From NCBI RefSeq assembly GCF_000715075.1, contig NC_134101.1:148899084-148963083 (forward strand): a DNA stretch of 64,000 nt. The letters run 5' to 3'. Positions 22,550 to 49,452 of this stretch are shown here, piece by piece. A program made the position numbers and the translations under genes. Numbering within the stretch: position 1 is the stretch's first letter; every line of letters begins with the position of its first letter. The notes below the pieces were generated by a model. It did no database searches and was not told the origin of the DNA. It saw only the letters and a list, made by a program, of their open reading frames with translations. This stretch comes from Nicotiana tabacum. Lineage: Eukaryota > Streptophyta > Magnoliopsida > Solanales > Solanaceae.

Positions 22550-22554
22550 ACTGC
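22550..22554. repeat. left target-site duplication ACTGC of the Ogre
   Basis: ACTGC directly precedes the TG end at 22555 and is repeated at 45552-45556 directly after the terminal CA (45550-45551). Confidence 0.93.
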
Positions 22555-25500: not shown

Positions 25501-26976
25501 GAAAATTGATTTAACAAATAATACATGAACATGAACTAAAAATTAATTCAAACGATAAACAAAACAAACATTTGTTGATTTTAGATTCGAAAATATCAAA
25601 ACAAAATATGGACAAAATAAAACTCAAAAACTACTAACCGGATCGAAAGACGAACAACGACCAAACAAACAACGAACTTGACGATGAACTTACGACGTAT
25701 AGTATCTTCACTTGACGAAAAACCCTCGACCTTTGCCGGACTTTAACCGGACTGTCTTGTGTCGTCAACAACAGTACGAAGCGGCGAGCAGCAACACGAC
25801 GTCAAGACAGCGGTCACGGCGACAGGCAGTAGCAGTCCGGCGGCGACAGGCAGCAGCACATCGCGGACAGCCATGGACGACGACATGGTCGACGTCGAAG
25901 CTCGTCCATGGCTGTGTTCATTTGGTTGTTTGATTGAGACAGAAGCAGCAACAGCTGGTCGATCTTGGCAGCGGCAGTCCATCGAGGAGGATGACGGGAA
26001 GACGACGGGGAGCTGTCATGGCGGACAGCAGTAACTCGGAAATGACGCAAAAAACTGTACGTGCGTGTGGACTGCCGGACTAGTTTGGGTGGTGTCGAAA
26101 CAGCGGCAGCTACCATGTGAGAACATCGAAGCTCAGCCATGGTTGGGCATGGCGAAAGCTCGAAACGGGGACGATGAAGCTTGGTGAGGGAGGATGTGCT
26201 CGTGTGAAGGTGTTGACGCAGCTGTGTGTGCGTCGATGAGGAGCTTGGAGGTGGAGGATGATGAAGCTTGGTGAGGGAAGCAGCCATGGACGTTGGGTTT
26301 TTTGAGAGTGTTGGGGAAGATGAAGATAGAGGGGGCGGGTAGGCTAGTTTAGGTTTTTAGGGTTTTCTTACTATTTTTTTTTTGTTTTTCTTTGTTTTAT
26401 TTTTTTGAAATGCAAGATAATAGGGTGTTGGGTTATGGACCGGGTTGACCCAGTTCGAAATGGACTGGGTCGTAGGGAAGATTGGGCCATTTTTTGGGCC
26501 TGTGGCTTGAAGTTGAAGAAGAGGCCTAATTCCGACTTTCTTAATATTTTCGCTCTCTTTTCTTCTTTTATTTTTCTAAAACTAAATTATAAAAATACTT
26601 AAACTATTATTAAGAACTAAATTAAGCGCAAATTAACTCCCAATAACAATTAACGCACAATTAAGTATTAATTAAGCATAAAATTGTATATTTGGTCATT
26701 AAATGCTAAAAATGCAAACGATGCCTATTTTTGTAATTTTTTAATTTTTGTAAAACAATTTTAATTACTAACAATTGTAGAATTAAATCCTATATGCAAA
26801 ATGCGACATATTTTTTGTATTTTTTATTAATTTAGCAAATAAACATGCACAAACAAATACAAATAATTATTCAAAATGTCACAAAATATCACAAAAATGG
26901 CACACCAAGAAAAATTATTTTATTTTTGAATTTTTTGGGAGTAATTCTCATATAGGGAAAAAATCACGTGCTTACA
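22555..26976 (-). mobile_element. Ogre 3-prime LTR
   Basis: The - strand starts TGTAAGCACGTG (26976 leftward) and ends GGAGGTGTGACA at 22555. It contains GTGCCTAACACCTTC-like Tat U5 sequence (reverse complement, 22773-22787), long AT-rich stretches and a GC-rich island at 25740-26300. It is nearly identical to 41125-45551. A 157-codon frame in the island (25814-26287) is present in both LTRs but looks incidental. Confidence 0.93.
24405..24420 (-). promoter_or_regulatory. candidate TATA box of Ogre 3-prime LTR
   Basis: On the - strand GGGATATATATATGTGAAG lies about 2.55 kb into the LTR. The identical site occurs in the 5-prime LTR at about 42980-42993. A pyrimidine-rich + strand (purine-rich on the element strand) follows it. 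Confidence 0.4.
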
Positions 26977-26993
26977 GCTGCCCCTCTTTGCCC
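26977..26993 (-). promoter_or_regulatory. Ogre polypurine tract
   Basis: On the - strand GGGCAAAGAGGGGCAGC abuts the TGTAAGCACG start of the 3-prime LTR. This is the expected position of the plus-strand primer for reverse transcription. Confidence 0.85.
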
Positions 26994-27080
26994 GAAGACA
27001 CGAAGGGTTTTCGTGCAAAGATAAAGCGAGCGATTTTTGCCCATCCGAGTACTCCGTTGAAGCATTTTTTGAAAAAGATT

Positions 27081-27150
27081 TGACCGAACCTTTGCTTCAA
27101 AGGTTTCCTACATATCCTGGGCTAAACAGGAATCAGGTCAATGTAGTTCG
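27081..27150 (-). ncRNA. Ogre two-hairpin motif, copy 1
   Basis: Inner stem TCCTG (27115-27119) pairs with CAGGA (27127-27131). Outer stem CTACAT (27108-27113) pairs with ATGTAG (27141-27146). Adjacent hairpin AACCTTTG (27087-27094) pairs with CAAAGGTT (27098-27105). It shares the frame CCGA...CCTAC.TATC...GAATCAGGTC...GTAGTTC with three other copies. The function is unknown; calling it a structured RNA is inference from covariation. Confidence 0.6.
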
Positions 27151-27538
27151 AGAAATTTTGGTAGCTGGGACTACCGTTGGACTGCAATGTTACTGTTGTT
27201 GCAAGCTATTATTATTGCTTACCGATCTCCTTGTTACACCGTGCTTAAAAAAAACAAGAAGCTAGGCTAGAGTACAATTTGTTTTTGTTGCCTTGCTTCC
27301 TTGTCTGCTTGCATTTCTTTCGGTGCTTTTCTTCCGATGTTTTTCTTTCTTTTGACACATGGACTTGAGTTTATGCTGGGACCTCTTGTTGCAACCTTCT
27401 GCTTCCCGATGCTGGGGATTTTATTGTTTACTGCTGGGGATTCCTGTTGTAACCTTCCGCCTTCTGGTGGGGTTACTGATTCCAAACTCTGTAATACAAG
27501 ACTAAAAAGTTGCTTCAATGTAAAATTATGAAATGTAT

Positions 27539-28350
27539 GCCCGCATTATACTGGTGGACGACCTAGAACTGAAATGTATTCCCGCATTTTACTGGTGGGC
27601 GACCTAGAACAGAAAAGTATTCCCGCATTATACTGGTGGGTGACCTAGAACTTAAAAGTATTCCCGCATTATACTGGTGGGCGACCTAGAACCTAAATGT
27701 ATTCCCGCATTATACTGGTGGGCGACCTAGAACTGAAATGTATTCCCGCATTATACTGGTGGGCGACCTAGAACATGAAATGAAAAGATAAATGCATACC
27801 CGCATTATACTGGCGGGCGACCTAGAACATGAAATGAAAACATAAATGTATACCCGCATTATACTGGTGGGTGACCTAGAAATGGAAAACTGAAATGTAT
27901 GCCCGCATTATACTGGTGGGCGACCTAGAATATGGAATGAACAGACAAAATGTATTCCCTCATTATACTAGTGGGCGACCTAGAACTGAAATGTATTCCC
28001 GCATTATACTGGTGGGCGACCTAGAACTTAAATGTATTCCCGCATTATACTGGTGGGCGACCTAGAACTTAAATGTATTCCCGCATTATACTGGTGGGCG
28101 ACCTAGAACTTAAATGTATTCCCGCATTATACTGGTGGGCGACCTAGAACTTAAATATATTCCCGTATTTTACTGGTGGGCGACCTAGAGCATGAAATGA
28201 AAACATAAATGCATACCCGCATTATACTGGTGGGTGACCTAGAGCATGAAATGAAAACATAAATGCATACCCGCATTATACTGGTGGGTGACCTAGAACA
28301 TGAAATGAAAAGACAGAAATGTATTCCCGCATTATACTGGTGGGCGCCTA
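27539..28350 (-). repeat. 41/54-bp minisatellite in Ogre 3-prime region
   Basis: Eighteen tandem units share the core CCCGCATTATACTGGTGGGC and then GACCTAGAAC. Units are of two lengths: 41 bp (for example 27663 to 27704) and 54 bp (for example 27799 to 27853), the longer having an extra 13 bp (roughly TGAAATGAAAACA). Units are grouped by type rather than strictly alternating. It lies between the polypurine tract and the integrase end, where Ogre elements are known to generate tandem repeats. Confidence 0.95.
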
Positions 28351-29265
28351 ATTGGTAAAGAATAATTTGAATTTGTTTCCTCGATTCTCCGAGAAAATTT
28401 CCACTTGTGGCAGAAAATTTTATGCCCCAATTCTGGCGATCTTTCTTATGGCGTATCTTTAGGCCATCATCAACACTTTATTTTCCTGTTCAAATCAAAG
28501 AAAATTTAGTTAGTTTTTTTTTTTTTTTTTTTTTTTGAAATATGGCGAATGGTCATGTCACTCCTGATGGGGATGATTGTTCCCTTTCCCTTATTCTTGT
28601 TCGGCGTTCTCAAAACTTGTTGGGGATGATGTTATTTGCTGGGGATAACATTCTGCTGGGGATGGTTTTTCCATTTATCCCTTCACCATTTTGTATCTCA
28701 AAAATTTCTGGAGGTTATTTTGCCGAAGATGAATTTTCCTTTCTTCCCTTCCCCTTCTGTGTTGTCCGACCACCTCGTAACTTGGTCGATATTCGGTCGG
28801 AGTACTCTGGGGATCGTCTTGGAACTTGGCTTACAATTTCCTCAACATGTTTTTTTTTTCGGCTCTTCCCCGTACTTTCCTTGCCATTTTAGGACAGTAT
28901 TATTCGGCCTAGCAACCAACGTCTTTTGCCTTATTGCCTTGTCTCTTGCCTGCCCTTTTCACTTTTTATGTTGTACCATTTTGGCAACTGGTAGTAAGCT
29001 CTGAAAGACCTTCCTTAAAACATAAATTTCTAGAAAATTCTTTTAAAAAACGAAATGAAAAGATAGAAAAATGAGAAAATCTTTCTGAACAAAAAAAATG
29101 AACTTATCTGGGTGATACAACCGATTCCAATGATCATGTTGTGCATTCCGGGTTAATCAACCCAGTCTATTTGTGTCGATCAAACTTTCTGATGTCTTCA
29201 CTTGCTGGGGATAAATAGGTGCCCAATTCTTCGCAAAATACGGATCTTTTCCGTCAATCTATCTT

Positions 29266-29462
29266 GTCGCCTTATAGTGCCCTTCGCGGGGTTTTCACTA
29301 ACAAGGCTCTCTCATTTCTCACAACTCCCGTCGCCTTATGGTGCCTGTGAAGGTTTTCACCGATAAGACTCTCTCATTTTGTATTTCTCAGCTTACGTCG
29401 CCTTATGGCGCCTGTGAAGGTTTTCGCCAATAAGACTCTCTCATCTTATTTTCTCAGCTTGG
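29266..29462 (-). repeat. about 65-bp triplicated repeat in Ogre 3-prime region
   Basis: Three units start with GTCGCCTTAT at 29266, 29330 and 29397, each continuing with GAAGGTTTTC or a variant and ending AAGACTCTCTCAT. Spacings are 64 and 67 bp. Confidence 0.85.
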
Positions 29463-29809
29463 GATTGGAGTGTTGCCGATAAGATTTATCTCTGCCGGGA
29501 ATTCTTTTGGCTATAAATTCTTTCAATTCATGATCCTCATTCAGTCAGGGACCGATGTTTTATTCTTGGTTTTCATTTGCTTATCTTAACACCTCTCGGA
29601 TACTGATCGGGAGGTCTTTTTGGATATCAATATAGGTTTTAGAAGAAAAGGATATAAAATTCAAAATAACTTTGATGTGTAAAGTATTACAACTCTTGGA
29701 ATCAAACTCTTTTTTTTTCTTTTTTTTTCAAAATTTAGAAACATAATTTCTGCCCCAGTTTTCTTACTTGGGGATTTTTCTTTTGATTTTTTTTCTTTTT
29801 TTTATTACC

Positions 29810-29872
29810 TTATGACCGAGCCGTGAGGCGCCTACGTATCCTCTTTGAGGAATCAGGTCGAACGTAGTTCAC
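29810..29872 (-). ncRNA. Ogre two-hairpin motif, copy 2
   Basis: Inner stem TCCTC (29839-29843) and GAGGA (29847-29851) with loop TTT. Outer stem CTACGT (29832-29837) and ACGTAG (29862-29867). The adjacent short hairpin is GCC/GGC near 29820-29829. The constant blocks are the same as in copy 1, but the stem sequences differ and stay complementary. Confidence 0.6.
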
Positions 29873-30083
29873 TGACTCCTTTGTTTTCTTGCGACCTTCA
29901 AAAAGTTTTTTTTTTTTTACATTTTTTCATTAATGATTCCAAGAGAGGGGTATAAAAAGATAAGTATGGCTCAAAGGGGTAAAGCAAAGGTTAAAAGTGT
30001 TTGGATAGAAGAAAGAATTGCCTCCGTCATTTCATTATCTGATAAGCACTAAGTACAAACAAACAAATAAACAACAAAAGAAA

Positions 30084-32231
30084 TTACACATAATATCTTT
30101 TGACTGCATCAGAATTGATAGCCATGTCGACGCATCTTCCTTCAACATCCGTCAGACGTAAAGCGCCATTGGATAATACTCTGGTCACAATATACGGCCC
30201 TTGCCAATTCGGGGCGAACTTGCCTTTTGCCTCAATCTGATGTGGGAGGATCCGTTTCAATACTTGTTGCCCTACTTCAAATTTTCTGGGGCGCACCTTC
30301 TTATTGTATGCTCTTGCCATTCTCTTTTGATACAACTGGCCATGACATACTGCTGCCAATATTTTTTCATCCATTAAACTCAGCTGCTCTAGTCGGGTTT
30401 TGACCCATTCATCATCGTCAATCCCGGCCTCAGCGATAATTCGAAGGGAAGGAATTTCAACTTCCGCTGGTATTACTGCTTCGGTTCCGTATACCAACAA
30501 ATAAGGAGTCACACCTATTGAAGTACGAACAGTAGTGCGGTATCCTAACAACGCAAATGGTAGCTTTTCATGCCATTGTCTGGATCCTTCAATCATTTTC
30601 CTCAATATCTTCTTTATATTTTTGTTGGCTGCCTCAACTGCTCCATTCGCCTTGGGCCGATACGGGGTGGAATTACGGTGTGTAATCTTAAACTGTTCAC
30701 ATACTTCTCTCATCAAGTTGCTATTAAGATTAGCACCATTATCCGTGATTATTATATTTGGGATTCCAAATCTACAAATGATATGGGAATGGACGAAATC
30801 CACCACCGCCTTCTTGGTTACAGACTTAAAAGTTTTGGCTTCAACCCACTTAGTGAAATAATCGATGGCTACCAGAATGAACCTGTGACCGTTCGAAGCT
30901 GCCGGCTCGATAGGCCCAATGACATCCATGCCCCATGCTACAAATGGCCATGGTGCGGACATTGTGTGCAATTCCATTGGTGGAGAATGAATCAGATCTC
31001 CGTGTATCTGACACTGATGGCATTTTCGTACGAAACTGATACAATCATGCTCCATAGTGAGCCAATAATATCCCGCTCGCAGAATCTTCTTTGCCAACAC
31101 ATATCCGCTCATATGGGGCCCACAAACTCCAGCATGTACCTCTGTCATCACTATCGCGGCTTGACCTGCATCAATACATCTCAGCAATCCCAGATCTGGG
31201 GTTCTTTTGTACAACATTCCTCCACTGAGGAAAAATCCATTTGCCAGTCGTCGAATGGCTCTCTTTTGATCTCCGGTTGCCTGCTCCGGGTATATCCCCA
31301 TCCTGAGGTATTCCTTGATATCATAAAACCATGGCTCGCCATCCATTTCTTCTTCTATTATGTTGCAGTAGGCATGCTGATCACGAACCTGAATATACAA
31401 TGGGTCAACATGGATTTTGTCTGGATGGTGCAACATCGATGCTAAAGTGGCCAAAGCATCGGCAACCTCATTGTGAACTCTCGGGATGTGTCTGAACTCC
31501 ACTGATCGAAATCGCTTGCTCAGATCGTGCAAACATTGTCGATATGGTATAAGCTTCAAATCCCGTGTTTCCCATTCACCCTGGATTTGATGTACTAGGA
31601 GGTCCGAGTCTCCCAAGACCAAGACGTCCTGAACATCCATGTCTGCAGCCAATCGTAGGCCCAAAATACATGCCTCATATTCAGCCATGTTGTTAGTACA
31701 ATAGAAACGTAGCTGAGCTGTAACAGGATAGTGATGTCCTGTTTCTGAAATAAGTACTGCTCCTACTCCAACTCCTTTTGCATTAGCAGCCCCGTCAAAG
31801 AAAAGCTTCCACCCTGGCTCCTCATTCAGTTCTAACTCCTCTATATGTATCACTTCTTCATCAGGAAAATACGTCCTCAAAGGATCGTATTCTTCATCAA
31901 TAGGATTCTCAGCCAAGTGATCGGCCAATGCTTGAGATTTCATGGCCGTCCTCGTCACATAGACAATGTCGAACTCTGTGAGTAATATCTGCCATTTTGC
32001 CAATCTTCCTGTGGGCATAGGCTTCTGGAAAATATACTTTAATGGATCCAGACGTGAAATAAGGTAAGTAGTATGTGACGACAGATAATGCTTAAACTTC
32101 TGTGCTACCCAAGTTAGAGCACAACATGTCTTCTCAAGTTGAGTGTACTTATTCTCATAGACTGTAAACTTCTTGCTGAGATAATAGATGGCTTGCTCTT
32201 TTCTTCCTGTGATGTCGTGTTGACCCAACAC
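30084..32231 (-). CDS. Ogre pol: RNase H, archaeal-type RNase H, integrase
   Basis: An open frame of 715 residues. Residues 1-110 are the retrotransposon RNase H (KEQAIYYLSKKFTVYE, ALADHLAENP). Residues 141-265 form a second, archaeal-type RNase H with acidic residues D146, E184, D208 and D258 (HNEVADALA), diagnostic of the Tat lineage. The integrase has an HHCC zinc site (H366, H373, C404, C407) and a catalytic triad D436, D497, E533 (D-X60-D-X35-E). The tail has the PRKFEVGQQVLKR and WQGPYIV blocks usual after the core. The Met at 32231 is not a true start: the frame continues from RT upstream, separated by a one-base insertion near 32252. All catalytic residues are intact. Confidence 0.93.
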   Translation of the reverse strand: MLGQHDITGRKEQAIYYLSKKFTVYENKYTQLEKTCCALTWVAQKFKHYLSSHTTYLISRLDPLKYIFQKPMPTGRLAKWQILLTEFDIVYVTRTAMKSQALADHLAENPIDEEYDPLRTYFPDEEVIHIEELELNEEPGWKLFFDGAANAKGVGVGAVLISETGHHYPVTAQLRFYCTNNMAEYEACILGLRLAADMDVQDVLVLGDSDLLVHQIQGEWETRDLKLIPYRQCLHDLSKRFRSVEFRHIPRVHNEVADALATLASMLHHPDKIHVDPLYIQVRDQHAYCNIIEEEMDGEPWFYDIKEYLRMGIYPEQATGDQKRAIRRLANGFFLSGGMLYKRTPDLGLLRCIDAGQAAIVMTEVHAGVCGPHMSGYVLAKKILRAGYYWLTMEHDCISFVRKCHQCQIHGDLIHSPPMELHTMSAPWPFVAWGMDVIGPIEPAASNGHRFILVAIDYFTKWVEAKTFKSVTKKAVVDFVHSHIICRFGIPNIIITDNGANLNSNLMREVCEQFKITHRNSTPYRPKANGAVEAANKNIKKILRKMIEGSRQWHEKLPFALLGYRTTVRTSIGVTPYLLVYGTEAVIPAEVEIPSLRIIAEAGIDDDEWVKTRLEQLSLMDEKILAAVCHGQLYQKRMARAYNKKVRPRKFEVGQQVLKRILPHQIEAKGKFAPNWQGPYIVTRVLSNGALRLTDVEGRCVDMAINSDAVKRYYV

Positions 32232-33556
32232 GCAACCAAACGAATGATCCAGAGACCGTTAGATAAAGGATTAATGGCCTCCCCGACTCAGGTGGAACCA
32301 ATACAGGTGGATTGGATAAATAACCTTTGATCTGGTCAAATGCCTCCTGACATTCTGCCGTCCATTCTATCGCGGTATCTTTCCTCAGCAATCGAAAGAT
32401 GGGTTCACAAGTTGTTGTGAGCTGAGCGATGAATCTGCTGATATAGTTCAACCTTCCCAACAGACTCATTACTTCTGTTTTGTTCCTCGGTGGCGGCAAT
32501 TCCTGGATGGATTTGATCTTTGACGGATCCAAATCAATGCCTCGCCGACTGACGATAAATCCTAACAGCTTTCCAGATGGAACACCAAATGCACATTTGG
32601 CTGGGTTGAGCTTAATGTCGTACCTTCGAAGTCTTTGGAAAAACTTCCTAAGGTCTGCTACGTGGTCTTCCTGACGCTTGGATTTGATGATCACATCATC
32701 TACGTACACTTCGATCTCTTTGTGTATCATATCATGGAACACAGTAGTCATTGCTCTCATGTACGTTGCCCCAACGTTCTTCAAACCGAATGGCATTACC
32801 CGATAACAATAACTCCCCCATGGCGTAATGAAAGTTGTTTTCTCCGCATCTTCTTCATCCATCAAAATCTGATGATACCCAGCGTAGCAATCGACAAAGG
32901 AGCCGATTTCTCGCCCGGCGCAATTGTCGATCAAGATATGGATATTGGGCAATGGAAAGTTATCCTTTGGGCTTGCCCTGTTCAGATTACGGTAGTCGAC
33001 GCATACCCTGATCTTCCCATCTTTCTTTGGTACTGGCACCACATTAGCCAACCAATCAGGATATCGAGAGACCCGAATAACCTTTGCTTGCAGCTGCTTG
33101 GTTACTTCTTCTTTAATCTTCACACTCATATCTGTCTTGAACTTCCTCAGTTTCTGCTTGACGGGAAGACAGGCCGGGTCAATGGGCAATTTGTGAACCA
33201 CTAGCTTGGTGCTTAAACCCGGCATGTCGTCATATGACCATGCAAAAATATCTTTAAACTCAATGAGTGCTTTGATTAATTCTTCCCTGATGCCAGGCTC
33301 AATGTGGATGCTGATTTTGGTTTCTCAAACATTATCCGCATCCTCTAGATTTACAGCCTCGGTGTCATTCAGATTAGGCTTGGGTTTCTCTTCAAATTGG
33401 CATAGTTCTCGGTTTATTTCTTCGAAGGCTTTATCCTCATCATATTCAGACTCATAATCGATCTCTTGTATCATTAAATCAGAGTCAGATTGATTTATTA
33501 GACTAGGTCGAAGATCCGTCGTGCAGACCATGTCATTAGAACCAGTAAAAAGAGAA
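32155..33556 (-). pseudogene. Ogre pol N-terminus and reverse transcriptase
   Basis: This frame begins after the predicted intron at 33556 with SLFTGSNDMVC. It runs through an acidic linker to a TGA at 33325-33327, where related elements have Arg (CGA), then continues in the same frame into RT. The RT part has CVDYRNLN, DCYAGYHQI, MPFGLKN and the catalytic YVDD (residues 174-177 counted from the Met at 33225). Near 32252 one extra base after GTC moves the frame, so the last 25 or so residues are out of phase and the RNase H continues in the frame ending at 30084. RT copies element RNA into cDNA. Two lesions in this piece inactivate the polyprotein. Confidence 0.9.
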
Positions 33557-33720
33557 CTGTTCAGAAAGAGAAAAGAATAAAACAAAATTAAAATGAGACA
33601 AGAAAAGAATTTTATTAAAATGCGGGATAACAGGGTTCACACTTTTACAAGATAAAATAAGATTTGGATTACACCCTGAATAATCCGAAAAATAAGAAAG
33701 CAAAAATCAAAGCCTACTAC
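33557..33720 (-). other. predicted Ogre intron between protease and RT frames
   Basis: On the - strand, a GTAGTAGG donor at 33720 overlaps the protease frame stop (TAG 33719-33717). The acceptor TTTCTCTTTCTGAACAG ends at 33557 after a pyrimidine- and T-rich stretch. Removing the 164 nt joins the two frames in phase (TG + T codon). Introns separating protease and RT frames are known from Ogre elements. Unspliced RNA would give Gag-Pro only, and spliced RNA Gag-Pro-Pol. The exact sites are predicted. Confidence 0.7.
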
Positions 33721-35594
33721 CAGGACTCTCCCCGAGTAGGAAGAGGAGTAACCGTCCAATTGTTGGTTTTGGCCTCAGGCCCCATAAACTGTATGTCTGT
33801 TCCGCTGGAACCCTCTCCGACTTCTACCATATTGACATTAGTGAACAATCTTTCGAAGCTCTGATTCAGATCCCCGTCAATCCCAATCAATGGCCCGAGA
33901 ACTTTCGGGAGTGGTGACCCCTTGGCGCTTGCTCTAACAAAAGATCTTGAGAGACGTGGCACAGGTTTGGGAAGAAACCAAACTTTCTTCTTCATTTTCC
34001 GAGCTCGTTTTACATCTGCCGCAGTCGGTTTGAACCCCAACCCAAAGGTCTCCAAATTCTTGGGCAAGGAAACAGGTTGAACAATTCCCTGAAGTTCAGC
34101 TCCCAAGCCTTTTCCTGGCATAAACCCATTACCCAGCATTTCTAAAACCATCATAACCGTTGCGGAAGCTATCCTAGGATGCTGAATGATTTCACCCTCG
34201 GGGATCTTGTTTGCCGACACTGCATCAAAAATCTGATAGACCCAGGGACCTTTGTCATCATTGGTCTCTATGAAGGGCACAATGGCGCCTCCTACGGTGC
34301 ACGTAGTGTCCTCGCCGTGCAACACGACCTCTTGTCTATCCCACTCAAACTTGACCATCTGATGCAAGGTGGATGGCACTGCTTTGGCTGCATGGATCCA
34401 CGGTCGTCCCAACAGAAAGTTATAAGATACCGTAGCATCTAATACCTGGAATTCCATGGTAAACTGGACTGGACCGATGGTCAACTCAAGTACAATATCC
34501 CCCACGGTGGCTGTTCCATTTCCGTCAAATCCTCGGACGCAAATGCTATTCTTTTGGATTCTTCCGTGGTCGATCTTCAATTGGTTCAGGGTGGATAATG
34601 GACAAATATTGGCACTTGACCCGTTATCCACTAATGCCCGAGTAACTGCCGAATCTTCACATTTGACAGTTAGGTAGAGAGCTTTATTATGCTCCGTGCC
34701 CTCCACTGGCAGATCATCATCTGAAAATGTTACCCTGTTCACCTCGAAAATTTTGTTGGCAATCGTTTCCAGGTGATTTACAGAAATCTCATTGGGCACA
34801 TGAGCTTCATTCAGTATCTTCATCAGGGCCCGACGATGTTCATCCGAATGGATTAATAATGATAGCAGTGAGATCTGGGCCGGTGTTTTCTTCAACTGTT
34901 CGACCACGGAGTAATCCTGCACTTTCATCTTCTTTAAGAAATCCTCAGCTTCTTCTTCTGACACAGGTTTCTTTATTGCAGCTGGATTGGGTCTTCTCAA
35001 CTCCGCCGGAGCAAAACACCGTCCTGATCGAGTGAGTCTCTGCGCCTCACAACTATTCTCCTCCACTTGTTGTCCCTTGTACATCACCACTGCCTTCTCA
35101 TACTTCCAAGTCACGACCTTGCTATCAATCACTAGTGTTTGGACTACTGGCTTTATGATGACCGGTTGCCTACAGACCCCCTTTACAACAACCACGGGTG
35201 CAGATGATGCTCCCGTTATTACCAACTTGGCTGGTTCTGGTTTCCTTGTAGCGGCAGATGGATTCTTCCCCAATATCACCACTGGCTTGACATCTTCCCC
35301 CTTCAACTGTACCCCTGCTTCCTCATTGATCGATTTTTCTTTTGGAGTGGCACGGATCATCATCACTGTCTGTGGGGGTTTCTTCGGCTCCCCTCCTTCG
35401 TGCACAAGCTCGATCATGTGGGCTTCAGGGTGCTTTGGCAATGGGTTCTGGTTAATGTTGGGTGCCTCCGGTGCCTGTACCTCGATCTTGTTGGTATCAA
35501 TAAGATCTTGTATTGCATGTTTCAGCCTCCAACATTTCTCGGTATCATGTCCGGGAGCTCCCGAACAATATTCACATCTTACCGAGTGATCCAT
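33717..35594 (-). CDS. Ogre gag C-terminus (zinc knuckle) and protease
   Basis: A 625-residue frame. It opens with a zinc knuckle, C7-X2-C10-X5-H16-X4-C21, which belongs to Gag, so the Met at 35594 is not the natural start. The frame is the same as that of gag and is separated from it by TAA at 35598-35600. A long linker leads to an aspartic protease with active site LVDNGSS (D323) in place of the usual D-T/S-G, and the partner motif LLGRPWIH near 395. A glycine-rich segment near 490-520 (GNGFMPGKGLG) resembles the G-patch found after proteases of some retroelements. The frame ends in the predicted intron donor. Confidence 0.88.
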   Translation of the reverse strand: MDHSVRCEYCSGAPGHDTEKCWRLKHAIQDLIDTNKIEVQAPEAPNINQNPLPKHPEAHMIELVHEGGEPKKPPQTVMMIRATPKEKSINEEAGVQLKGEDVKPVVILGKNPSAATRKPEPAKLVITGASSAPVVVVKGVCRQPVIIKPVVQTLVIDSKVVTWKYEKAVVMYKGQQVEENSCEAQRLTRSGRCFAPAELRRPNPAAIKKPVSEEEAEDFLKKMKVQDYSVVEQLKKTPAQISLLSLLIHSDEHRRALMKILNEAHVPNEISVNHLETIANKIFEVNRVTFSDDDLPVEGTEHNKALYLTVKCEDSAVTRALVDNGSSANICPLSTLNQLKIDHGRIQKNSICVRGFDGNGTATVGDIVLELTIGPVQFTMEFQVLDATVSYNFLLGRPWIHAAKAVPSTLHQMVKFEWDRQEVVLHGEDTTCTVGGAIVPFIETNDDKGPWVYQIFDAVSANKIPEGEIIQHPRIASATVMMVLEMLGNGFMPGKGLGAELQGIVQPVSLPKNLETFGLGFKPTAADVKRARKMKKKVWFLPKPVPRLSRSFVRASAKGSPLPKVLGPLIGIDGDLNQSFERLFTNVNMVEVGEGSSGTDIQFMGPEAKTNNWTVTPLPTRGESW

Positions 35595-35597
35595 ATT

Positions 35598-36986
35598 TTA
35601 GGGTAAGGGATTTGGTAATCTAGGCTCAACAGGATTTAATAAACCCAACTGCCTCAATTTGTGGAACAAGGCAATATAAGTTTCCCCCAACTCAGTAAAA
35701 GTTCTTTGCCTCTGCAATCTTTCATTTCTGGCGGCCGGATTTCCCCTGAAACCCATCCCTGGAGGGTTCCTGTAGGCTCTTGGTGGTGGATAGGTGTTTT
35801 GTGGTGGTGGATATGTGTTATGTGGAGGTGGGTATGTATTGTGGGGAACCGGCGCACGCCATTGTGGGCGAACCGGAGGTTGGGTGTATGTCTGGGCTTG
35901 GTGGACGGTGAAATGTTGTTCTTGTGGTTGGTAGTAGGGTTGTGGAGGGTAATTTGGAATGTGTGGGTAGTTTAGACGATGGGGTCTGGGTTGGTAATGA
36001 GGGGAAGGACCTCTAGATCTGGACCAATTGTCGGCCTCTAATGTCGTGACCTCCTCTCTCCTTTTCTTCCCTAGCGCACCTCCCGTGCCGCTCTGAATGG
36101 CCTGAGTTGTTGCCTTAATTGCCGAATAACTCAGGATCTTATTGGACTTAAGTCCCTCTTCTATCATACCTCCCATTTTCACAACTTCATTAAATGATTT
36201 GCCAACTGACGTCACCAAGTGACCAAAGTAAGTTGGCTCGAGAGTTTGTAAGAAGTAATCCACCATTTCTCCTTCTCTCATTGGGGGATCAACTCTGGCT
36301 GCCTGTTCTCTCCATCGGAACCCAAATTCCCGGAAGCTCTCTCCGGGTTTCTTCTCGAGCTTTAGCAATGTGAGACGGTCTGGGACTATCTCAAGGTTGT
36401 ATTGGAAATGTCCTGCGAAAGCCTGTGACAAGTCATCCCAGGTGTACCACCTGCTCGGATCTTGTCTTGTATACCACTCTAACGCCGACCCGCTCAAACT
36501 CTGGCCAAAGTAAGTTATTAATAGCTCATCTTTGCCCCCTGCTCCCCTCATTTTGCTACAAAAACCTCGTAGATGTGCCATAGGATCACCATGCCCTTCG
36601 TATAAATCGAACTTGGGCATTTTGAACCCTGCTGGTAATTGAACGTCAGGGAAAGGGCATAGATCCTTGTAAGCCACGCTGACTTGGTTACCTAACCCGT
36701 GTATGTTCCTGAAGGATTGCTCCAGGCTTTTAAATTTCCGCATCACCTCGTCCTGATCTGGGCTCTTAGCCGGCTTTTCAATCTCCGCAGGGACCTCAAA
36801 GTGGGGATTATAGGTATGTGGCTCGGGTGCTTTGAATGTGAGTTCAGGGGGGGTAGTATTGTGTATCGTGAGCCTGAAACAGTGGCTCACTAGATGATAT
36901 GTGCAATGGGGCTGGGGAAGGTGCCACAAAGACGGGAACATTTGGTGGAGGAGGGTTTTGAGTGGGTGGTGGAGCTTGGGAATCAT
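35598..36986 (-). pseudogene. Ogre gag, capsid part
   Basis: About 415 meaningful residues follow the frameshift near 36850. The first 45 or so residues of the open frame are out of phase. It contains the retrotransposon gag domain (DLYEGHGDPMAHLRGF, ALEWYTRQDPSRWYTWDDL, FRWREQAARVDPPM) and a Pro/Tyr-rich repeat region near residues 370-415 (HNTYPPP, QNTYPPP). It ends at TAA 35598-35600 (PLP stop NMDH), just before the zinc knuckle, which continues in the same frame. Gag forms the virus-like particle. The stop and the upstream frameshift prevent a normal Gag product from this copy. Confidence 0.88.
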
Positions 36987-37233
36987 AAGCCTCTCTTCCC
37001 TGATAATAGTGATGGCTTGGGAAACTTGTTGAAGGACCGGGAGAGGGGTATTCTGGCGTGTGTGTTGGTTGAAGGGTAGGAGTAACGGGTAATTCTTGCC
37101 CCTTCTGGGCTCTAGCTAAGGCTATCTGCATTTCATTCATTTCTAGCCTCATTTTCTCCATTTTCTCCAGGGCTTCTTTCAGCATCTGATTGGCCGTTTT
37201 TTCTGACTCAACGCTGTTGTCTGACCCAGTCAT
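36844..37233 (-). pseudogene. Ogre gag N-terminus
   Basis: Starts MTGSDNSVESEK at 37233, a good natural gag start, with a short coiled-coil-like helix (residues 15-45, LKEALEKMEKMRLEMNEMQ) and then a Pro/Ser-rich linker. At about 36848-36854 a run of seven C on the - strand shifts the frame; six C would read straight into the capsid frame. The homopolymer length change may be a real lesion or a sequencing error. Confidence 0.85.
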
Positions 37234-37773
37234 GCTTTCTGGTATAGGACCTTTTGATCTTGTCTGATAATGGTACGGTGCCAGTACGCTCTAACAACTA
37301 ACTGATATTGATTGGAAAAACAACAAACTTGTCATTGTTAGAGTCTTAACAGATATTGTAATTGCACGTTAGGGGGATGCAATGCTCCTAGGCAGTTAAT
37401 CATTTCTAACATGCTTTTGCTCTGACCGCATGCATCATCCCGGCTTATTTTTGCTCTGACAAATATATATTCTTCCTCTTTTTTTTTCTTTTTCTTTTTT
37501 TTTTTCTTTTTAATTACGGCCGAATCCTATAGAGATTGCCTACGTATCGTGACCCCGCACGAATCAGACCAAGCGTAGTTCGTGCCATAAGACCAAATTT
37601 TTTTTTATTACTCAAAATAATGCTATTACAAGCCATCACAAAAAAAAACAAAAAATACAGACTTTATATATATAGATAGATATATATATATATTTTTTTT
37701 TTTGAGAATGTTTGAAGAAAAAAAAAATATAGGTAGACAACAGACTCGAAAAACAAACAAATGCAAGATTGAA
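37234..37773 (-). other. Ogre ORF1-gag intergenic region
   Basis: Non-coding interval between ORF1 and gag. It contains a long T/C-rich tract (37474-37512), structured-motif copy 3 (37519-37584) and poly-A/T-rich sequence with a short (TA)n at 37676-37694. Confidence 0.7.
37519..37584 (-). ncRNA. Ogre two-hairpin motif, copy 3
   Basis: Inner stem TCGTG (37547-37551) and CACGA (37558-37562). Outer stem CTACG (37540-37544) and CGTAG (37574-37578). Adjacent hairpin AATC/GATT at about 37523-37537. Compared with copy 2, the inner stem changed on both arms with pairing kept. Confidence 0.6.
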
Positions 37774-39831
37774 CTAGGGATACATTAAAGCTTTGAATTT
37801 TGGTGCCCGCGAGGCATCATTCGGCCTTTCCGCGGGCTTGGGGGCCAGGCTTCTTTGCAAGCTTTTTAGTTCCTCCATGATCTGATGGACATAACCCATG
37901 ATTGAGGCAAATAGGACATCACGAGGCATCTCTTCACATGTTAGGCACTTTGTGGTGATATAGCGCCCTATATCATTGATCCTACCCCTGATTCTATCCC
38001 TCTCTATGCACAGCTGTTCTATCCGTTGATTCTTTAGTCCCAATATTCGAGTATTGTCAATGAGCTGCTCTTGGAACCTCTCCATTTGTTCTTCCATCCG
38101 GGCTATCGACTCATGGCAGTGTTCTCTATATGTTCTAGCATCCTGGGCTTGTTTGAGGACCCGATTATTGAGAATGGAGTTTATCTCTCTCAATGTCGCA
38201 ACACTCATTTCGTAGTCCCTTTTTACTTGCCATAGGTGCTCTCTCCGTGATGTTGTAACTGTAGCCCACCTGACCCGCATTCTTGTTATACAAGCCTGGG
38301 ATCTCTCCAAGTCTTCTCGGCTTTGGCTGACTTGATTTCTCAATTCCGCTATCAACCTTTCATCAGATAGACGTTTCTGTCGGTCGCTATCACTCTTACT
38401 GACTCGGCGAATTCGGGCTTTCAGTGCCTGGTTTTCTTTGGCTAATTTGTTCTTCTCACCCTGCTCTGAGGCTACTTGAACGTTGTTTTCAAACTTAAGC
38501 CTTTCAATTTGTCGCTTCAGCTTCCCGATTTCAACCCGGTAGCCTTCCTCTCTCCCTAACCAGCCCCACTGTTCCTGCGAATCATCCGTAAATTGTTGGA
38601 CGTGAGCTCTTTTGGCAGGCCTCTGATGAATCTGGAACCTTTTCCCGAACCAAACATCGTATTTTGGGTCTACCTCACCCTTAGCCAGCTCTCGAACCAT
38701 AGTCTTGGGTTCAAGGAATCTACATTCGTGCCACAGCTTTCTAATTTTTCCTTCGGGGAACACGACTCCTGGACTCAACTCAATGGCGTGCTTGCTTAGA
38801 TCCTCATCAGTGGGAATTACCTGAAATCTTCCTAGTTGGCGCAGTACCCGATGAGGAGCATATGGTTGGATGCTACGAAGTCCCATCAAAAGAACATGAC
38901 ATTCCTCGGCCGCCATGTATATTACCTCAGTATCATTCAACCACCCAAATGCCCATTCAACTTGGTCGGCTGTTGTTGACCTCAATTGTGCAAGCCATGC
39001 TTCGACGCCTTCGGGAAATATGACGCCTGTCATTCGTTTCTCAAAGCCGCTAATGCAGTTTTTCTCAATCAACCCGTGGTTCATGTATCCCACTCGGTGA
39101 TGGAGGTGTTCTTGCATCCACAGCTGGAGTAACAGATTGCATCCCTGAAAGAACTTGCCTCCTTCTCGGCATATAGTTAAAGCTCGGTAGATTTCAGACA
39201 AAATCAAAGGAACCACAGTACTGTCGGTTCTTTTGATTGCAACATCGGCCATCCCTACAAGGCCTATCTCTATTTTTTTATCTTTGCGGGGACAGACCAC
39301 AACTCCCAGAAATGCTGTGATAAATGCCAAAGTACGTCTTGCTTCCCACTTGATTCTGTTCCCAGTGTGAATTAATCCGAGGTTTGGTTCTTCCAAACCC
39401 TGAGGAATTCCGTACCGTTGATACAAGAATTGGAGAGTACAACATCCCTTCGACAAATCATCATTCTGTACCTTCCGACTAATGCTTAGCAAATCCAAGA
39501 ACGCGTGCGGAGATACTGGTCTTGGTGAAAGTAAATACTGCCCTCTTAGTTTCCCATTCAACCCCGCATATTCGGAGACTTCCTCTAGTGTAGGTGAAAG
39601 TTCAAAGTCAGCAAAACGAAACACGTTGCGTGTTGGGTCCCAGAACGGTATTAGAGCCTCGATGATATCTGTCCTTGGCTTGATATTCAACAGATCGACA
39701 AAACCTCCCAAAACTCTTTCCACTATCTTTATACTATCCTTTCCCATATCATTCCACCACATGTGGAGTTGCGAAGGGACCTCGCTACACACTGAGAATG
39801 GTTCATTTTGACTTGTGCTCATCCTGCACAT
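37774..39831 (-). CDS. Ogre ORF1 protein, 685 aa
   Basis: The extra 5-prime ORF that distinguishes Ogre from other gypsy elements; fully open. MSTSQNEPF at 39822 is an equally plausible start. Residues of about 25-330 form a globular domain (WWNDMGKDS, LIPFWDPTRNVFRFADFELSPTLEEVSEYAGL) that resembles the plant-mobile-domain/DUF7745 class common in Solanaceae annotations. Residues of about 430-620 are strongly heptad-like (KLKRQIERLKFENN, KENQALKARI, ARMEEQMERFQEQL), predicting a long coiled coil. No catalytic motif is seen. Its role in the element is not established. It being intact while gag and pol carry lesions is notable but could be chance. Confidence 0.85.
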   Translation of the reverse strand: MCRMSTSQNEPFSVCSEVPSQLHMWWNDMGKDSIKIVERVLGGFVDLLNIKPRTDIIEALIPFWDPTRNVFRFADFELSPTLEEVSEYAGLNGKLRGQYLLSPRPVSPHAFLDLLSISRKVQNDDLSKGCCTLQFLYQRYGIPQGLEEPNLGLIHTGNRIKWEARRTLAFITAFLGVVVCPRKDKKIEIGLVGMADVAIKRTDSTVVPLILSEIYRALTICREGGKFFQGCNLLLQLWMQEHLHHRVGYMNHGLIEKNCISGFEKRMTGVIFPEGVEAWLAQLRSTTADQVEWAFGWLNDTEVIYMAAEECHVLLMGLRSIQPYAPHRVLRQLGRFQVIPTDEDLSKHAIELSPGVVFPEGKIRKLWHECRFLEPKTMVRELAKGEVDPKYDVWFGKRFQIHQRPAKRAHVQQFTDDSQEQWGWLGREEGYRVEIGKLKRQIERLKFENNVQVASEQGEKNKLAKENQALKARIRRVSKSDSDRQKRLSDERLIAELRNQVSQSREDLERSQACITRMRVRWATVTTSRREHLWQVKRDYEMSVATLREINSILNNRVLKQAQDARTYREHCHESIARMEEQMERFQEQLIDNTRILGLKNQRIEQLCIERDRIRGRINDIGRYITTKCLTCEEMPRDVLFASIMGYVHQIMEELKSLQRSLAPKPAERPNDASRAPKFKALMYP

Positions 39832-41102
39832 TTATTATAGTGATTAAAGAAGGAAAAACTTTTATTTGACTTAAAAACTATCTATATTCTAAAGAAATAT
39901 TTTTGAACCAATATTTTTTTTTTCTTGAAAAAAACTTTTAAGGAGAAAGGAAATATTTTTGAACCAATATTCTGAATTTATGAAAGAAATACTACAGAAA
40001 AAATATTTTTGAATTTTATTTTGAATATCTTTTAAACAAATAATTGGGATTTTAAGATTAAAAGGAAATATATTTTTTTTTTAAAAAAAATTTGAGGTCT
40101 AAAAGAAAAACTTTCTAAAGAAGTGAGTAATGTTAAATATTTTTGGATTTTTTTTTGAATATGGTGAGCCGAAACCAAAGAGGTTTGCCTCTGATCTCAC
40201 ATCCGGTGAGAATCATACCCGCGTAGTTCAGGCTATAAACTAACTAATTTTTTTTTTTGAAAACAAACAAATTTTTCCTTTTTCTTTTATATCAAAAAAA
40301 AACTATTTTCCTTTTTCATTTTTTTTTAAAATAAAGCAAATTAAAATAAAAGACTTATTCCTACACACTTTCTGCTTTCTAGGCAAACCAACAATTCTAA
40401 AAGTAAAAATATATATGTTTTTTTTTTAAAAAAATTCGGCAGCACTTCGACAGTACTTGGACACTGATTTTTCTAAATTAATCAAATAACTTTTCACTTG
40501 CTATTTTTATTTTATTTTATTTTTTACACTCCCGAGACTCAGAAGCCGGTCAACATGCAAGACCGAGCGAATAAATGCACATAAAACAAATAAGATGCAT
40601 CAGGATGGTCATTTTCATTTTTGGTGCACCTGTCCTAGACAGACCCAACCCCTGTGTTGAGCCTCCAAAGTCAGATGCACGTGATGCAAACAAACGTTCC
40701 TACTAGGGATCCGACATGTGGTTTTGTTATACTAGGTTCAGAACCTGGGTGTTTGTTCTAGACCTGGCTTACCCGAGCGGACAGCTCGAGCCGAGGGGGG
40801 TAGCGTACCGGGAATACAGAAGCTTCACCGGCTTAGCAACTTGTCCGAACCTCGTTCTAAATTGGGATTTTTACACTATACAGAAAAGAAGTCGTACGAA
40901 GTACACCCTTCTTCATGATTTAGAAGACTCAGAGAGGAGATGGGTTTCGGCACAGTTTATACACAGTTCATGTAATATCAAAGCGGTAAAAGCAGCATTT
41001 AGCACATTAGGCTCAAACATGTAAAAATCAGATAAAACCAAATATAACAATTTATATGAGCTCGAATTTCTAACCCTGAACCACTGATTCTGGGTTAAGA
41101 TT
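39832..41102 (-). other. Ogre 5-prime untranslated leader
   Basis: Leader between the primer-binding site and ORF1. It is A/T-rich with many oligo-T and oligo-A tracts (39900-40440), structured-motif copy 4 (40164-40232) and a more mixed-composition part at 40540-41000. No coding frame is supported. Confidence 0.75.
40164..40232 (-). ncRNA. Ogre two-hairpin motif, copy 4 (diverged)
   Basis: Inner stem TCTCAC (40195-40200) and GTGAGA (40206-40211), six pairs. Adjacent hairpin AAACC/GGTTT at about 40172-40186. CCGA, AATCA and CGTAGTTC blocks are kept, but the outer stem is lost because CTACG is replaced by CTCTG. Confidence 0.5.
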
Positions 41103-41120: not shown

Positions 41121-41124
41121 AGCT

Positions 41125-44100
41125 GGCGACACCTCCTTTTTCCGACCCCGCGAAGGGCGAAGGGGAGTTTTTTCCAATTAAAGGACAGTCGAAACGGGAT
41201 TGGTTTAATTATTTCAGAGTCGCCACTTGGGAGATTTAGGGTGTCCCAAGTCACCAATTTTAATCCCGAATCGAGGAAAAGAATGACTCTATATTACAGT
41301 CTGCGTACCAGAAATCCGGATAAGGAATTCTGTTAACCCGGGAGAAGGTGTTAGGCATTCCCGAGTTCCGTGGTTCTAGCACGGTCGCTCAACTGTTATA
41401 TTCGGCTTATTTATCTAATTTTTAATACAATTATGAACCATGTGCAAATTTTATCTTTTACCGCTTTATTATTATAATTATTATTTTTTAGGAATGTGAA
41501 CATCGCTTAAAACATATCTTTGGATTGTGTCACATGAAATGCACCCACAATACGAAACATATTTTATTTGATGTTTTAGGATTTAGATTTGGGTCGCATG
41601 AAATGCGCCTCCGAGTTTAAGAAGGTAAAATTAATTAAATCGCGCCTAAAGAGTCTAACGCGTCATTATCTTTGGGGAAGGAAGTGAAATTCACTAAACA
41701 ATCCATGCCAAATTCTAAGTAATTTTTTTTTTAAAATAATTAAATAAATAAATGAGATTGGAGAATCCTATACATTTGTATTATTTACATCTATTTATTT
41801 TTAGCGAAATCCTTTAATAATATCCTTTAATGACTACCTTTTTATTATTACTAAATTTTTATAAATATAAAATCAATATCTACATTCTTGAAAATGACAT
41901 ATTAAATAGAAGAGAAAAACAAATATTAGCAGAAAAATAATAAAATTATAATCATAAATACAACATGGAATTATCGAAAAGTAAAAAAATAAAAAAAAAA
42001 CTAATTATCCCATAGTTGGATTAAAATTCAAATTATTAGTAAGACTTAAGCTTATTGAAACTAATTATTTACAAATACTGAAAATTGAAAGAAATAAAAA
42101 TAAAACTTGAGTACTAAATCATATTTCTAAAAATTTAAACAATTTAACATTAACTAACTTTGTTTTAATTCATCATGTCCTAATACTTGTTTGCAAACTA
42201 ATTCATGTTATAACTGAAATTGACTACATGATTCGGATTAACTTATCGTTGACGAAAAACCTTATGAATAAGGAACTTAGTTAATTTTTGCCAAACTGAT
42301 TCAATAACGCCATTTTTACGTTATTTCTTCTATATTTTTTTATTTAAACAATTTTAATTAATAATCAGGTTTAAATATATTTCCTAATAATCTGGTAAAG
42401 ACGTTATTTAATATGTCGCTATAATATGCCTAGTTATGCCAATGACAGTGATTTACGGAATAATAATACATGAATAACCTAAATACAATACAAAAAATTA
42501 AATTAAACTAAATTAAAAATTTAACACTCCATTCTTCATTTCAGCTTACAAAATGCCAAAATTACAGTTGTGTACCTGATATTGTCAATATAAGAAGAAG
42601 AAAGTCAGCAACGTAATACGTAACACAGCAGCAGCAACAATAACCAGCAATAGCCAGTCAACGAAAATCCCAGTGACAGCTTTGAAAAATTCAAAATAAA
42701 ATCCAGGAATGCCGAAAATAACGGACAGAAACCAAGGGAAATTTTCAGATTTTTGAAAGGCTAGTTAATCTTCAACCCTTAATTTCTACACCTGTATACC
42801 AGAATATTTATCAGGTGTGTACTACTTTCTCTTCTAATTTTCAAAATTTTTTTTTTCTTTGTATGTTTTTCTTTTCTTGAGAGTTTCAATTTTTTTTTTC
42901 GGAATAAATGTTCAGCTTTTTTTTTTAATCTCTTTTTTTTTTCTGTCTGTATTTCTTCTCCCCTCTTGTGTCCAGACTTCACATATATATATCCCATCCC
43001 TTTAATCAATTAAAATCAATCCCTTTCTCTACCAAACCCATTATCTTCCCACTCATCCCCATTACATTAAATAAATATATCACACCACCCCATTATATTT
43101 TGTCCCCCATGCTTTATTTAAAATAATGCAAGATTCCCCTTTAATTTAAATCTTGTCCCCCCTTTATATTAAATAATCATATCACAACCCACCCCATTTC
43201 ATTTTGTCCCTCATGCTTCAAATAAACAATTACAAAATGTACAATTCCTAAACTACCCCTTCCGACCTTACTGAAATTACCAAACTACCCCTGAACGTAT
43301 TACAAATTTACCAAACTACCCATCAGCTATAACACATCAATTAATCAAACTTAACCAAAATATAGACAATATGATCAATTTCTAACAATGTTCAAACAAC
43401 AATATGAACACGGATGAACATCATAACAACAATATCATATGAACATGATTTTAACAACATTTCAACAACAAATCACATGAACACAAATTGAACAACCAAG
43501 AACAACTAAAATTTGATTGAACAATATTTTAGCAACAAACAATCCTATTTTCGGATTCAAACCAACAACAAACAAAGTATGAAGATTTCTAAATTCAATC
43601 ATATTGAACTTAAAATCAACTCTAACAACATTATAACAAACAATTCTTATATTAAACTTTAAACAAGATTATGAGACTAATTCAAGAAATAATCACAAAT
43701 GGTAAACAAGAAATCAAACTATACACATTTCGGATTCAAAATCAAACAAACATAATATGAACATGAATTAAATCTAAAAATAAAAACGACGGATTCAAAT
43801 GACTAAAACTAACATACTTCCCTTATTGCAACTAAATTCTTTTAAGCAAATGACAAAACAAAACTAAGAAGAAACAATTATGAATTTAAACTTGAACTTT
43901 AACAATACTAACAATTTCCGGAAAATACATCAAATACATGAAACAAATTGAAGAAACAATTAATTAAATTTCAATTTGAATCTAACAAACATTAAACTAA
44001 CAAATTCTTACTTAAACAATACAACAAACATGAAATAAACATGAAAACAACTAATTAAACTTCCATTTTAAAATCTGAAAATTGATTTAACAAATAACAC

Positions 44101-45551: not shown

Positions 45552-45556
45552 ACTGC
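45552..45556. repeat. right target-site duplication ACTGC of the Ogre
   Basis: Exact repeat of 22550-22554. Confidence 0.93.
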
Positions 45557-48889: not shown

Positions 48890-49059
48890 TGATAACTAGG
48901 GATTTTGATACATTTTATACTTCTTCTTGCTTAAGTTTTGATTAGAAATGTGTACAAAATAGTCCCAAAGGCTCACAAGTTGTGCTTTCAAAGATCAGCT
49001 CAAAAAGGAGTGAAACTTGCACAAGTACCAAAATAAGACAAAGCTCAGGAAAAACAAGG

Positions 49060-49410: not shown

Positions 49411-49444
49411 GCAGGGGTATTATTGTCCAAAATTTTTAGCTTAG

Positions 49445-49452
49445 TATAAATA
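49445..49452 (+). promoter_or_regulatory. TATA box of Athila 5-prime LTR
   Basis: TATAAATA; identical site at 61847-61854 in the 3-prime LTR. Confidence 0.75.

Follow-up and report, generated by a model that had tools for sequence, protein, structure and literature searches.

Why does one short motif recur at several places in the non-coding parts of a single plant retrotransposon, and is it kept there as RNA or as DNA? The question is raised by a 64-kb stretch of Nicotiana tabacum DNA (contig NC_134101.1, positions 148,899,084 to 148,963,083 of the forward strand), here called the window, which holds an Ogre-type retrotransposon with long terminal repeats (LTRs) on its minus strand. The original prediction, made from the letters alone, had described four motif copies in one shared orientation and had read compensatory changes in their paired arms as selection on RNA structure. 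Both statements were borne out. The covariance model R1 recovers all four copies on the minus strand, and selection on RNA structure is supported by 110 copies, by a tree-based null model, by the score that structure adds in two copies from outside the genome (loci L001 and L002) and by an excess of G.U over A.C. At E<=1 the window copies score 51.6-78.8 bits in element sense: copy D in the leader upstream of ORF1 (40165-40229; 51.6 bits), copy C in the gap between ORF1 and gag, 193 nucleotides (nt) beyond the lower boundary of the ORF1 frame (37516-37581; 78.8 bits), copy B 214 nt beyond the point where the integrase frame ends (29812-29870; 52.8 bits) and copy A some 100 nt short of the 3' LTR (27080-27149; 59.6 bits).

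In RNA sense, the motif of about 66 nt consists of GAA, the P1 5' arm (CUACGY), a linker, the P2 5' arm (e.g. GACC), UGAU, the P3 hairpin, a U, the P1 3' arm (ACGUAG), GCA, the P4 hairpin, a C and the P2 3' arm (e.g. GGUC). P1 crosses P2, and the predicted fold, one pseudoknot with two inserted hairpins, P3 inside it and P4 between the 3' arms of P1 and P2, is well supported by the comparison of copies. The P1 3' arm sits between P3 and P4, within the loop closed by P2, so that an upstream strand is led into a three-way junction. GAA, UGAU, GC and the C preceding the P2 3' arm are unpaired and near-invariant (GAA is kept in 105, 110 and 108 of the 110 copies, the C in 102), and the P3 loops differ among copies in sequence and length. 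In copy B, on the minus strand, the P1 5' arm CTACGT (29862-29867) pairs with ACGTAG (29832-29837) by sequence and structure count, and the P2 5' arm GACC (29856-29859) pairs with GGTC (29814-29817) by sequence and by RNAalifold, which joins alignment columns 14-17 with 73-76. The P3 hairpin TCCTC-AAA-GAGGA (29839-29851) is found by sequence, RNAalifold and structure count, and the P4 hairpin GCC-TCAC-GGC (29820-29829) by sequence, copy B being shifted by one column in the P4 count. The stems originally listed (P1, P3 and P4) are thus present in the copies. The blocks that had been called constant are indeed repeated, but they are not truly constant, as parts of them are the covarying arms of P2, the fourth stem, which had been missed. 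Likewise, the copies are co-oriented as described, but they had not been written as the RNA strand; the element lies on the minus strand, so that its RNA corresponds to the reverse complement of the letters given at first.

The copies that carry this comparison were sampled from a very large population. The 10-mer CCTACGTATC occurs 74,253 times in the 4.0-Gb genome, compared with 4,591 times for its reversed control, and the longer core GAACTACGN{3,8}TGATTCN{6,25}ACGTAGG has 53,740 matches, a minimum copy number, compared with 0 for the reversed pattern, so that the matches are beyond chance. Copies were taken from 96 of 100 listed CCTACGTATC places, 36 of them within 20 loci of 10 kb and the other 60 as loci of 161 bases; an additional eight loci of 3 kb are the first eight of the same places and also lie inside L011-L015, and the 10-kb loci brought further copies beyond the CCTACGTATC places. 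Because the fetching 10-mer contains the P1 3' arm, conservation of P1 is inflated in the fetched set. The 110 copies were aligned with MAFFT, blind to structure, after one chance pattern match (L004) had been removed by hand. A thinned set, A2, holds 51 copies and omits 59 of the 110, namely L001, L002 and 57 that are redundant at >93%. R1 (P2, P3 and P4) and the sequence-only model R2 were built from the same 51 own-genome copies, with L001 and L002 excluded.

When no structure is supplied, RNAalifold returns P2 and P3 from the 110 copies, but neither P1 nor P4. Its P2 pairs 15-75, 16-74 and 17-73 show 51, 42 and 36 double-sided changes with 3, 1 and 4 broken pairs, and the pair 14-76 shows 4 double-sided changes with 6 broken; a pairing of UG (18-19) with CG (46-47) is also returned, which competes with P1 and has zero double changes. 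With the named four-helix structure, 92.7% of 2,013 cells pair, compared with 19.7-42.4% for slid versions, and 325 cells carry a double change against a shuffled mean of 116. The thinned set gives 92.4% paired cells and 154 double-change cells against 47. As shuffles ignore relatedness, covariation was also tested against a tree-based null modelled on R-scape (FastTree, parsimony changes assigned to random columns, 200 simulations, G statistic with average product correction), in which the tree came from the motif itself, within a single genome and with the structure already known before the test. Among 2,926 pairs of the 79 columns, at least 3 columns apart, with E computed for 3,081 pairs, ranks 1-6 are held by P2 17-73 (E 0.035), P2 15-75 (0.055), P3 24-41 (0.055), P3 25-40 (0.08), P4 55-69 (0.095) and P2 16-74 (5). 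All six lie within the 19 proposed pairs, which is beyond chance expectation.

The strand on which pairing acts could be approached through the kind of mismatch that is tolerated. For this count L001 and L002 were excluded and 15 of 108 identical strings collapsed, leaving 93 distinct copies, and position six of P1, which is C.A in the majority of copies, was set aside. In element sense, the 17 remaining pairs of the four helices hold 86 G.U and 29 A.C in cells that are non-independent (18/5 in P2, 14/5 in P3, 42/11 in P4 and 12/8 in P1). An antisense structure would be expected to reverse this bias, and the excess thus favours sense RNA over DNA. P2 itself occurs in 22 combinations in these copies, 7 of them fully Watson-Crick. 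Genome-wide, its last pair (17-73) is U-A in 3,986 cases (GACU..AGUC) and a C.A mismatch in 531 (GACC..AGUC), two table cells from which no association is claimed.

Against this evidence several other results have to be set. Two counts in the thinned set do not stand out: at least as many double-changed pairs were seen in 25 of 500 shuffles, and at least as many further pair types in 107 of 500. Only 17-73 has an E below 0.05 in the tree-based test, so that the pairwise result is borderline, and 13 of the 19 structure pairs, those outside the top six, lack significance, the best E in P1 being 185. Plain folding of the four window copies in a pseudoknot-free model gave z scores of -1.3, -0.1, -0.2 and -2.1 for sense and of -2.2, -0.3, -1.1 and -1.5 for antisense; with values from -2.2 to -0.1, single-sequence folding is uninformative and does not discriminate the strands. 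Copy D (40165-40229), moreover, has lost the outer stem P1, whose arms read CTACGC and T-CAGA, the latter in place of TACGTA, while it keeps P3 and P4 and has one mismatch in P2 (GGUA/GGCU). The outer-stem change from CTACGT/ACGTAG to CTACAT/ATGTAG, on which the original prediction had leaned, is real, but it does not hold generally: P1 is almost invariant, and this single double-sided change (G-C to A-U) is found in 4 of 110 copies. Three of the four stand near a 3' LTR by context and the fourth (L016, 1793-1862) has no context assigned. Copy A of the window shows the change relative to the other position classes (CUACAU/AUGUAG), and copy C has GGUC/GGCC in P2, including one U.G.

Three of the four window copies are among the 51 training sequences of R1, and the fourth (29812-29870) was omitted as >93% like a used one; they therefore match R1 largely by construction, and the test outside the training set is that of L001 and L002. 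These motif copies were found by pattern in public assemblies labelled bacterial, a Solirubrobacter scaffold (L001) and a Bacilli metagenome-assembled genome from roe deer gut (L002). L002 scores 46.5 bits with R1 and 27.3 with R2, and L001 32.6 and 17.7, a gain from structure of 15-19 bits that is similar for training copies. Their P2 helices are longer and of different sequence (GGCCUU/AAGGCC in L002, GGACUU/AAGUCC in L001). L001 has 35% GC despite its Solirubrobacter label, and in L002 the AT-rich motif piece, with about 300 bases outside the bacterial part, adjoins a candidate truncated ssb gene of an otherwise bacterial contig. Both are probably non-bacterial contamination or chimeras of plant origin, judging from composition and context, and the two stretches contain no clear Ogre coding sequence by tblastn (best E 0.047, 26% identity to the reverse transcriptase (RT), in L001).

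In IMG/VR, strict motif patterns gave 0 matches, and when the integrase-ORF protein served as the query, a single pattern match and no relative came up. A relaxed 5' pattern of 18 bases hit 22 contigs, two of which have an 8-mer with at most 2 mismatches from the downstream arm within the next 60 bases. As a negative control, these 22 viral contig stretches, which share the 5' block, reach at most 17.2 bits with R1, and their matches are taken as chance.

Within the tobacco genome, the copies are sorted by place. Position could be assigned from context for 26 of 50 window and own-genome matches, and 3 identical strings were dropped (two of them being one genomic copy in overlapping loci). For all 23 that were left, the nearest relative in another locus shares the position class, compared with an expectation of 5.6, which suggests that the four classes D, C, B and A are lineages of old standing that have been maintained separately. 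Each class has its own P2 replacement: GACC/GGUC and GACU/AGUC in B; GGUC/GACC, GGUC/GGCC, GGUC/GAUC, GAUC/GGUC and GAUC/GAUC, including G.U intermediates, in C; GGUU/AACC, GGUU/AACU and AGUU/AACU in D; GACC/GGUC and GGCC/GGCC in A. One P2 mismatch is present in 3 of the 23, an A copy (GACC/GGCC), the D copy of L011 (AGGU/AACU) and copy D of the window. The motif is also an island of conservation, with mean pairwise identities, relative to 100 columns on either side, of 0.80 compared with 0.41/0.36 in C (6 elements), 0.68 compared with 0.25/0.10 in B (6 elements) and 0.78 compared with 0.31/0.42 in D (5 elements).

R1 has 46 matches, which are 44 distinct places as two recur in overlapping loci, in 19 of the 20 10-kb loci (none in L018). 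They share the strand of the Ogre ORF matches of their locus or, in L020, L024 and L030, of LTR pieces; opposite-strand LTR pieces occur in L012 and L013, and a fragment of 21% identity in L019. In 7 elements C starts 158-233 nt beyond the end of ORF1 homology, and in 8 elements B lies 34-284 nt beyond that of the integrase ORF. Each of the 68 short loci, 60 with 161 bases and 8 with 3 kb, carries an R1 match, many of these matches being training copies. Together, these sequence comparisons support the view that the elements carry several copies, that these occupy the non-coding stretches bordering the coding blocks and that they form position-specific lineages.

Two loci, L020 and L024, carry D-, C- and B-type copies, typed by sequence, at spacings of 1.0-1.5 kb, and across their 10 kb tblastn (E<=1e-8) finds no match to the five ORFs of the window element. 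In the four intervals between their copies the longest ORFs have 21, 45, 85 and 61 amino acids, with shuffled 95th percentiles of 76, 68, 80 and 65. This type apparently is a repeated non-autonomous derivative. The loci L077-L079 and L080-L083 resemble it in spacing and motif type, by which alone they were judged.

A search of the window in Rfam 15 gave 0 family matches at gathering score, consistent with the earlier statement that the motif is not a known ribozyme. In 18 of the 60 short loci, searched at E<=10, only two sub-threshold matches were seen: RF01690 (20.9 of 35 bits), which overlaps the motif on the opposite strand, and RF02849 (12 of 167 bits), which touches it by 6 bases. L001 and L002 gave two sub-threshold matches, away from the motif. 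In the open-licence literature, no title or beginning of an abstract among the papers listed describes the motif, and none of those listed for strings of its sequence deals with retrotransposons, judged by title. It appears to be an undescribed RNA family within the cis-acting structured RNAs of LTR elements.

What, then, could such an RNA do? From the sense-strand pairing, the several copies, their non-coding borders and their presence in loci with no detectable Ogre genes we infer that the motif acts in cis on what becomes of the genomic RNA. That D, C and B types are retained where neither ORF1 nor gag-pol is detectable speaks for such a role rather than for one in the translation of ORFs. 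Our preferred reading, held at a little short of even confidence, is a repeated tag on the Ogre genomic RNA on which Gag or a host factor would dock for export or packaging. The protein docking on the fold would be either the element's own Gag or a host factor of export or decay, and the dispersed copies would jointly label the genomic RNA, which is very long and partly unspliced, and direct its handling towards export, packaging or both. This reading is ranked first because a long, partly unspliced RNA must leave the nucleus and because there are parallels in animal elements and in BARE2. It is weakened by the density of invariant unpaired nucleotides, which exceeds that of a simple protein-binding hairpin and would suit a ribozyme or an exonuclease block, and by one of the four intervals in L020/L024 having an ORF slightly over the shuffled 95th percentile (85 compared with 80 amino acids). 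Sequence cannot separate the possible roles, and neither export nor packaging is singled out from RNA stability. Splicing control, which had been among the roles first suggested, looks least likely, as the gap separating the protease-region ORF from the RT frame has no window copy nearby. An internal ribosome entry site or cap-independent enhancer, which would allow ORF1 and gag to be translated from the long RNA, is quite improbable: copies D and C do lie upstream of these two frames, and pseudoknotted internal ribosome entry sites exist, but B and A come after the last ORF detected, and L020 and L024 keep their copies although no Ogre ORF can be detected there. An element for dimerization or kissing, in which the self-complementary UACGUA core would pair between copies on two RNAs or on one, is perhaps a shade less improbable; UACGUA is a palindrome and P1 is nearly invariant while P2, P3 and P4 vary (partly an effect of fetching), as if P1 had to match other copies, but the class near the 3' LTR changes both arms of P1, as expected for pairing within a copy. 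We consider it very improbable that the motif is a non-functional, duplicated DNA element whose similarity stems from recent copying. The copies do belong to a very abundant repeat family, but this view is already contradicted by the conservation island, the position lineages, the covariation relative to the tree null and the G.U bias; nor do they look like recent duplicates with random mismatches, the outcome that would have spoken against the original prediction, as 92.7% of cells pair and relatives follow position, not element.

The remaining alternatives start from the knot itself. A roadblock similar to an exonuclease-resistant RNA (xrRNA) is unlikely but well short of negligible: the upstream strand would pair into the three-way junction, a 5'-3' exonuclease of the XRN4 type would meet the knot, and decay would leave a protected 3' RNA or stable subgenomic pieces that start at every coding border. 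The strand order, with the upstream arm followed by closing stem, hairpin, partner of the upstream arm, hairpin and closing stem, resembles that of flaviviral xrRNA, in which an upstream strand likewise enters a three-way junction (PMC5760640). The distances of the copies past ORF1 and integrase homology (158-233 and 34-284 nt) would fit, and packaging of Ty1 needs Xrn1 (PMC12786077). However, the flaviviral crossing pairing has two nucleotides (PMC5760640), compared with the longer helix of five or six here, which is without significant P1 covariation. The derivatives without detectable coding sequence also retain copies despite having no Ogre ORF to express. Families of xrRNA are included in Rfam, and none matched at gathering score. 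A self-cleaving ribozyme cutting at or near the first conserved G is quite improbable, to the same degree as the translation element. HDV-like (hepatitis delta virus-like) ribozymes have the helix order P1 5', P2 5', P3, P1 3', P4, P2 3', and the motif shares it; conservation begins sharply, by eye, at the 5' G, and the C preceding the P2 3' arm is conserved. The crossing of P1 and P2, the helix stacking and the cleavage site of HDV-like ribozymes have been described, and HDV forms a double pseudoknot via P1.1 (PMC4908430), whereas the motif has a single one; no counterpart of P1.1 was noticed, in the course of analyses with no search aimed at it. Also unlike these ribozymes, the motif has an unpaired GAA before P1, so that the first conserved nucleotide lies upstream of P1, a near-invariant UGAU between P2 and P3, variable P3 loops and no ribozyme match in Rfam, and several active copies would shred the genomic RNA. 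A bolder proposal, about as unlikely in our view as the roadblock, is that the motif founds an undescribed class of natively knotted RNA, exonuclease-blocking or self-cleaving and found in more than one plant lineage, which would stand at each border of a coding block and punctuate one transcript into protected modules, each site with a lineage of its own.

The Ogre-type retrotransposons of plants are very large and abundant, and the one that carries the window copies (22553-45556, minus strand) was delimited by its LTRs, Pfam domain content and ORF layout. Self-comparison of the window gives the 3' LTR at 22553-26981 and the 5' LTR at 41122-45556, 4.43 kb each and 99.03% identical over 4440 columns. 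In order along the minus strand follow ORF1 with a plant mobile domain and DUF7745 (37774-39831; PF10536 8.3e-17, PF24924 3e-24), gag (35598-37115; PF03732 1.8e-7 and Nicotiana gag relatives), a frame of 626 codons at the expected place of the protease with a weak G-patch match only (33717-35597), the RT ORF (32155-33324; PF00078) and an ORF for RNase H, a second RNase H-like domain and integrase (30084-32258; PF17917, PF13456 and PF00665). Among the 120 matches listed, the gag homologues are best in Nicotiana and lower in Lycium and Capsicum. By this layout the element belongs to the Ogre lineage of Tat (Ty3/gypsy). The second RNase H-like domain (aRH) is described as a hallmark of Tat, a plant mobile domain in ORF1 is reported for 57% of Ogre elements, and Ogre layout and RNA splicing are described in the same paper (PMC6317226). 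In the window element PF17917 and PF13456 match separate places of the ORF at 30084-32258, ORF1 with its PF10536 match precedes gag, and about 390 bases separate the frames 33717-35597 and 32155-33324 as a predicted intron. The 3' non-coding part between copies B and A contains head-to-tail repeats of a unit of about 41 bp (27529-28350; self-comparison), and both LTRs contain, on the element strand, a stop-to-stop frame of 180 codons (25814-26356 and 44390-44932) with no Pfam match at E<=0.001. Outside the Ogre, two stretches of 1.4 kb each (48988-50388 and 61392-62790) are 93.6% alike in direct orientation and are possibly the LTRs of another element or a repeat pair.

Ogre RNAs, which have to be exported, packaged and translated, combine an extra ORF ahead of gag with a partly spliced intron. 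A covarying pseudoknot of 66 nt in tens of thousands of copies, kept in derivatives with no detectable genes, is a concrete object for work on export, packaging, exonuclease resistance and cleavage. The family is unmatched by Rfam 15, and the training set A2 with model R1 already reached two relatives outside the genome. BARE and BARE2 belong to Ty1/copia. Among plant elements, the Sireviruses also have conserved non-coding motifs, including an inverted repeat at the polypurine tract, but they are Ty1/copia, and their motifs are of DNA type and an inverted repeat, with no repeated pseudoknot RNA in the available part of the account (PMC2829016). Retrozymes are alike in being structured functional RNAs in plant non-autonomous elements (PMC4918200), but they are hammerheads, and the window has no hammerhead match at gathering score. 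BARE2 makes no Gag and yet conserves dimerization and packaging signals, so that cis RNA signals are kept in a Gag-less plant LTR element (PMC3735527), a likeness of description. In mouse LTR elements, the MusD transport element (MTE), which combines a pseudoknot and a kissing loop, and the IAP RNA transport element (RTE) are described as export elements, and they and the constitutive transport elements are structured cis RNAs on unspliced LTR-element RNA that leaves the nucleus (PMC12786077). These are animal elements, likened here by description, whereas the motif has several copies per element at coding borders. Like a constitutive transport element or a packaging signal, it may bind an export factor or Gag and so promote export or packaging, and its retention in the two derivatives without detectable Ogre coding sequence lends this indirect support.

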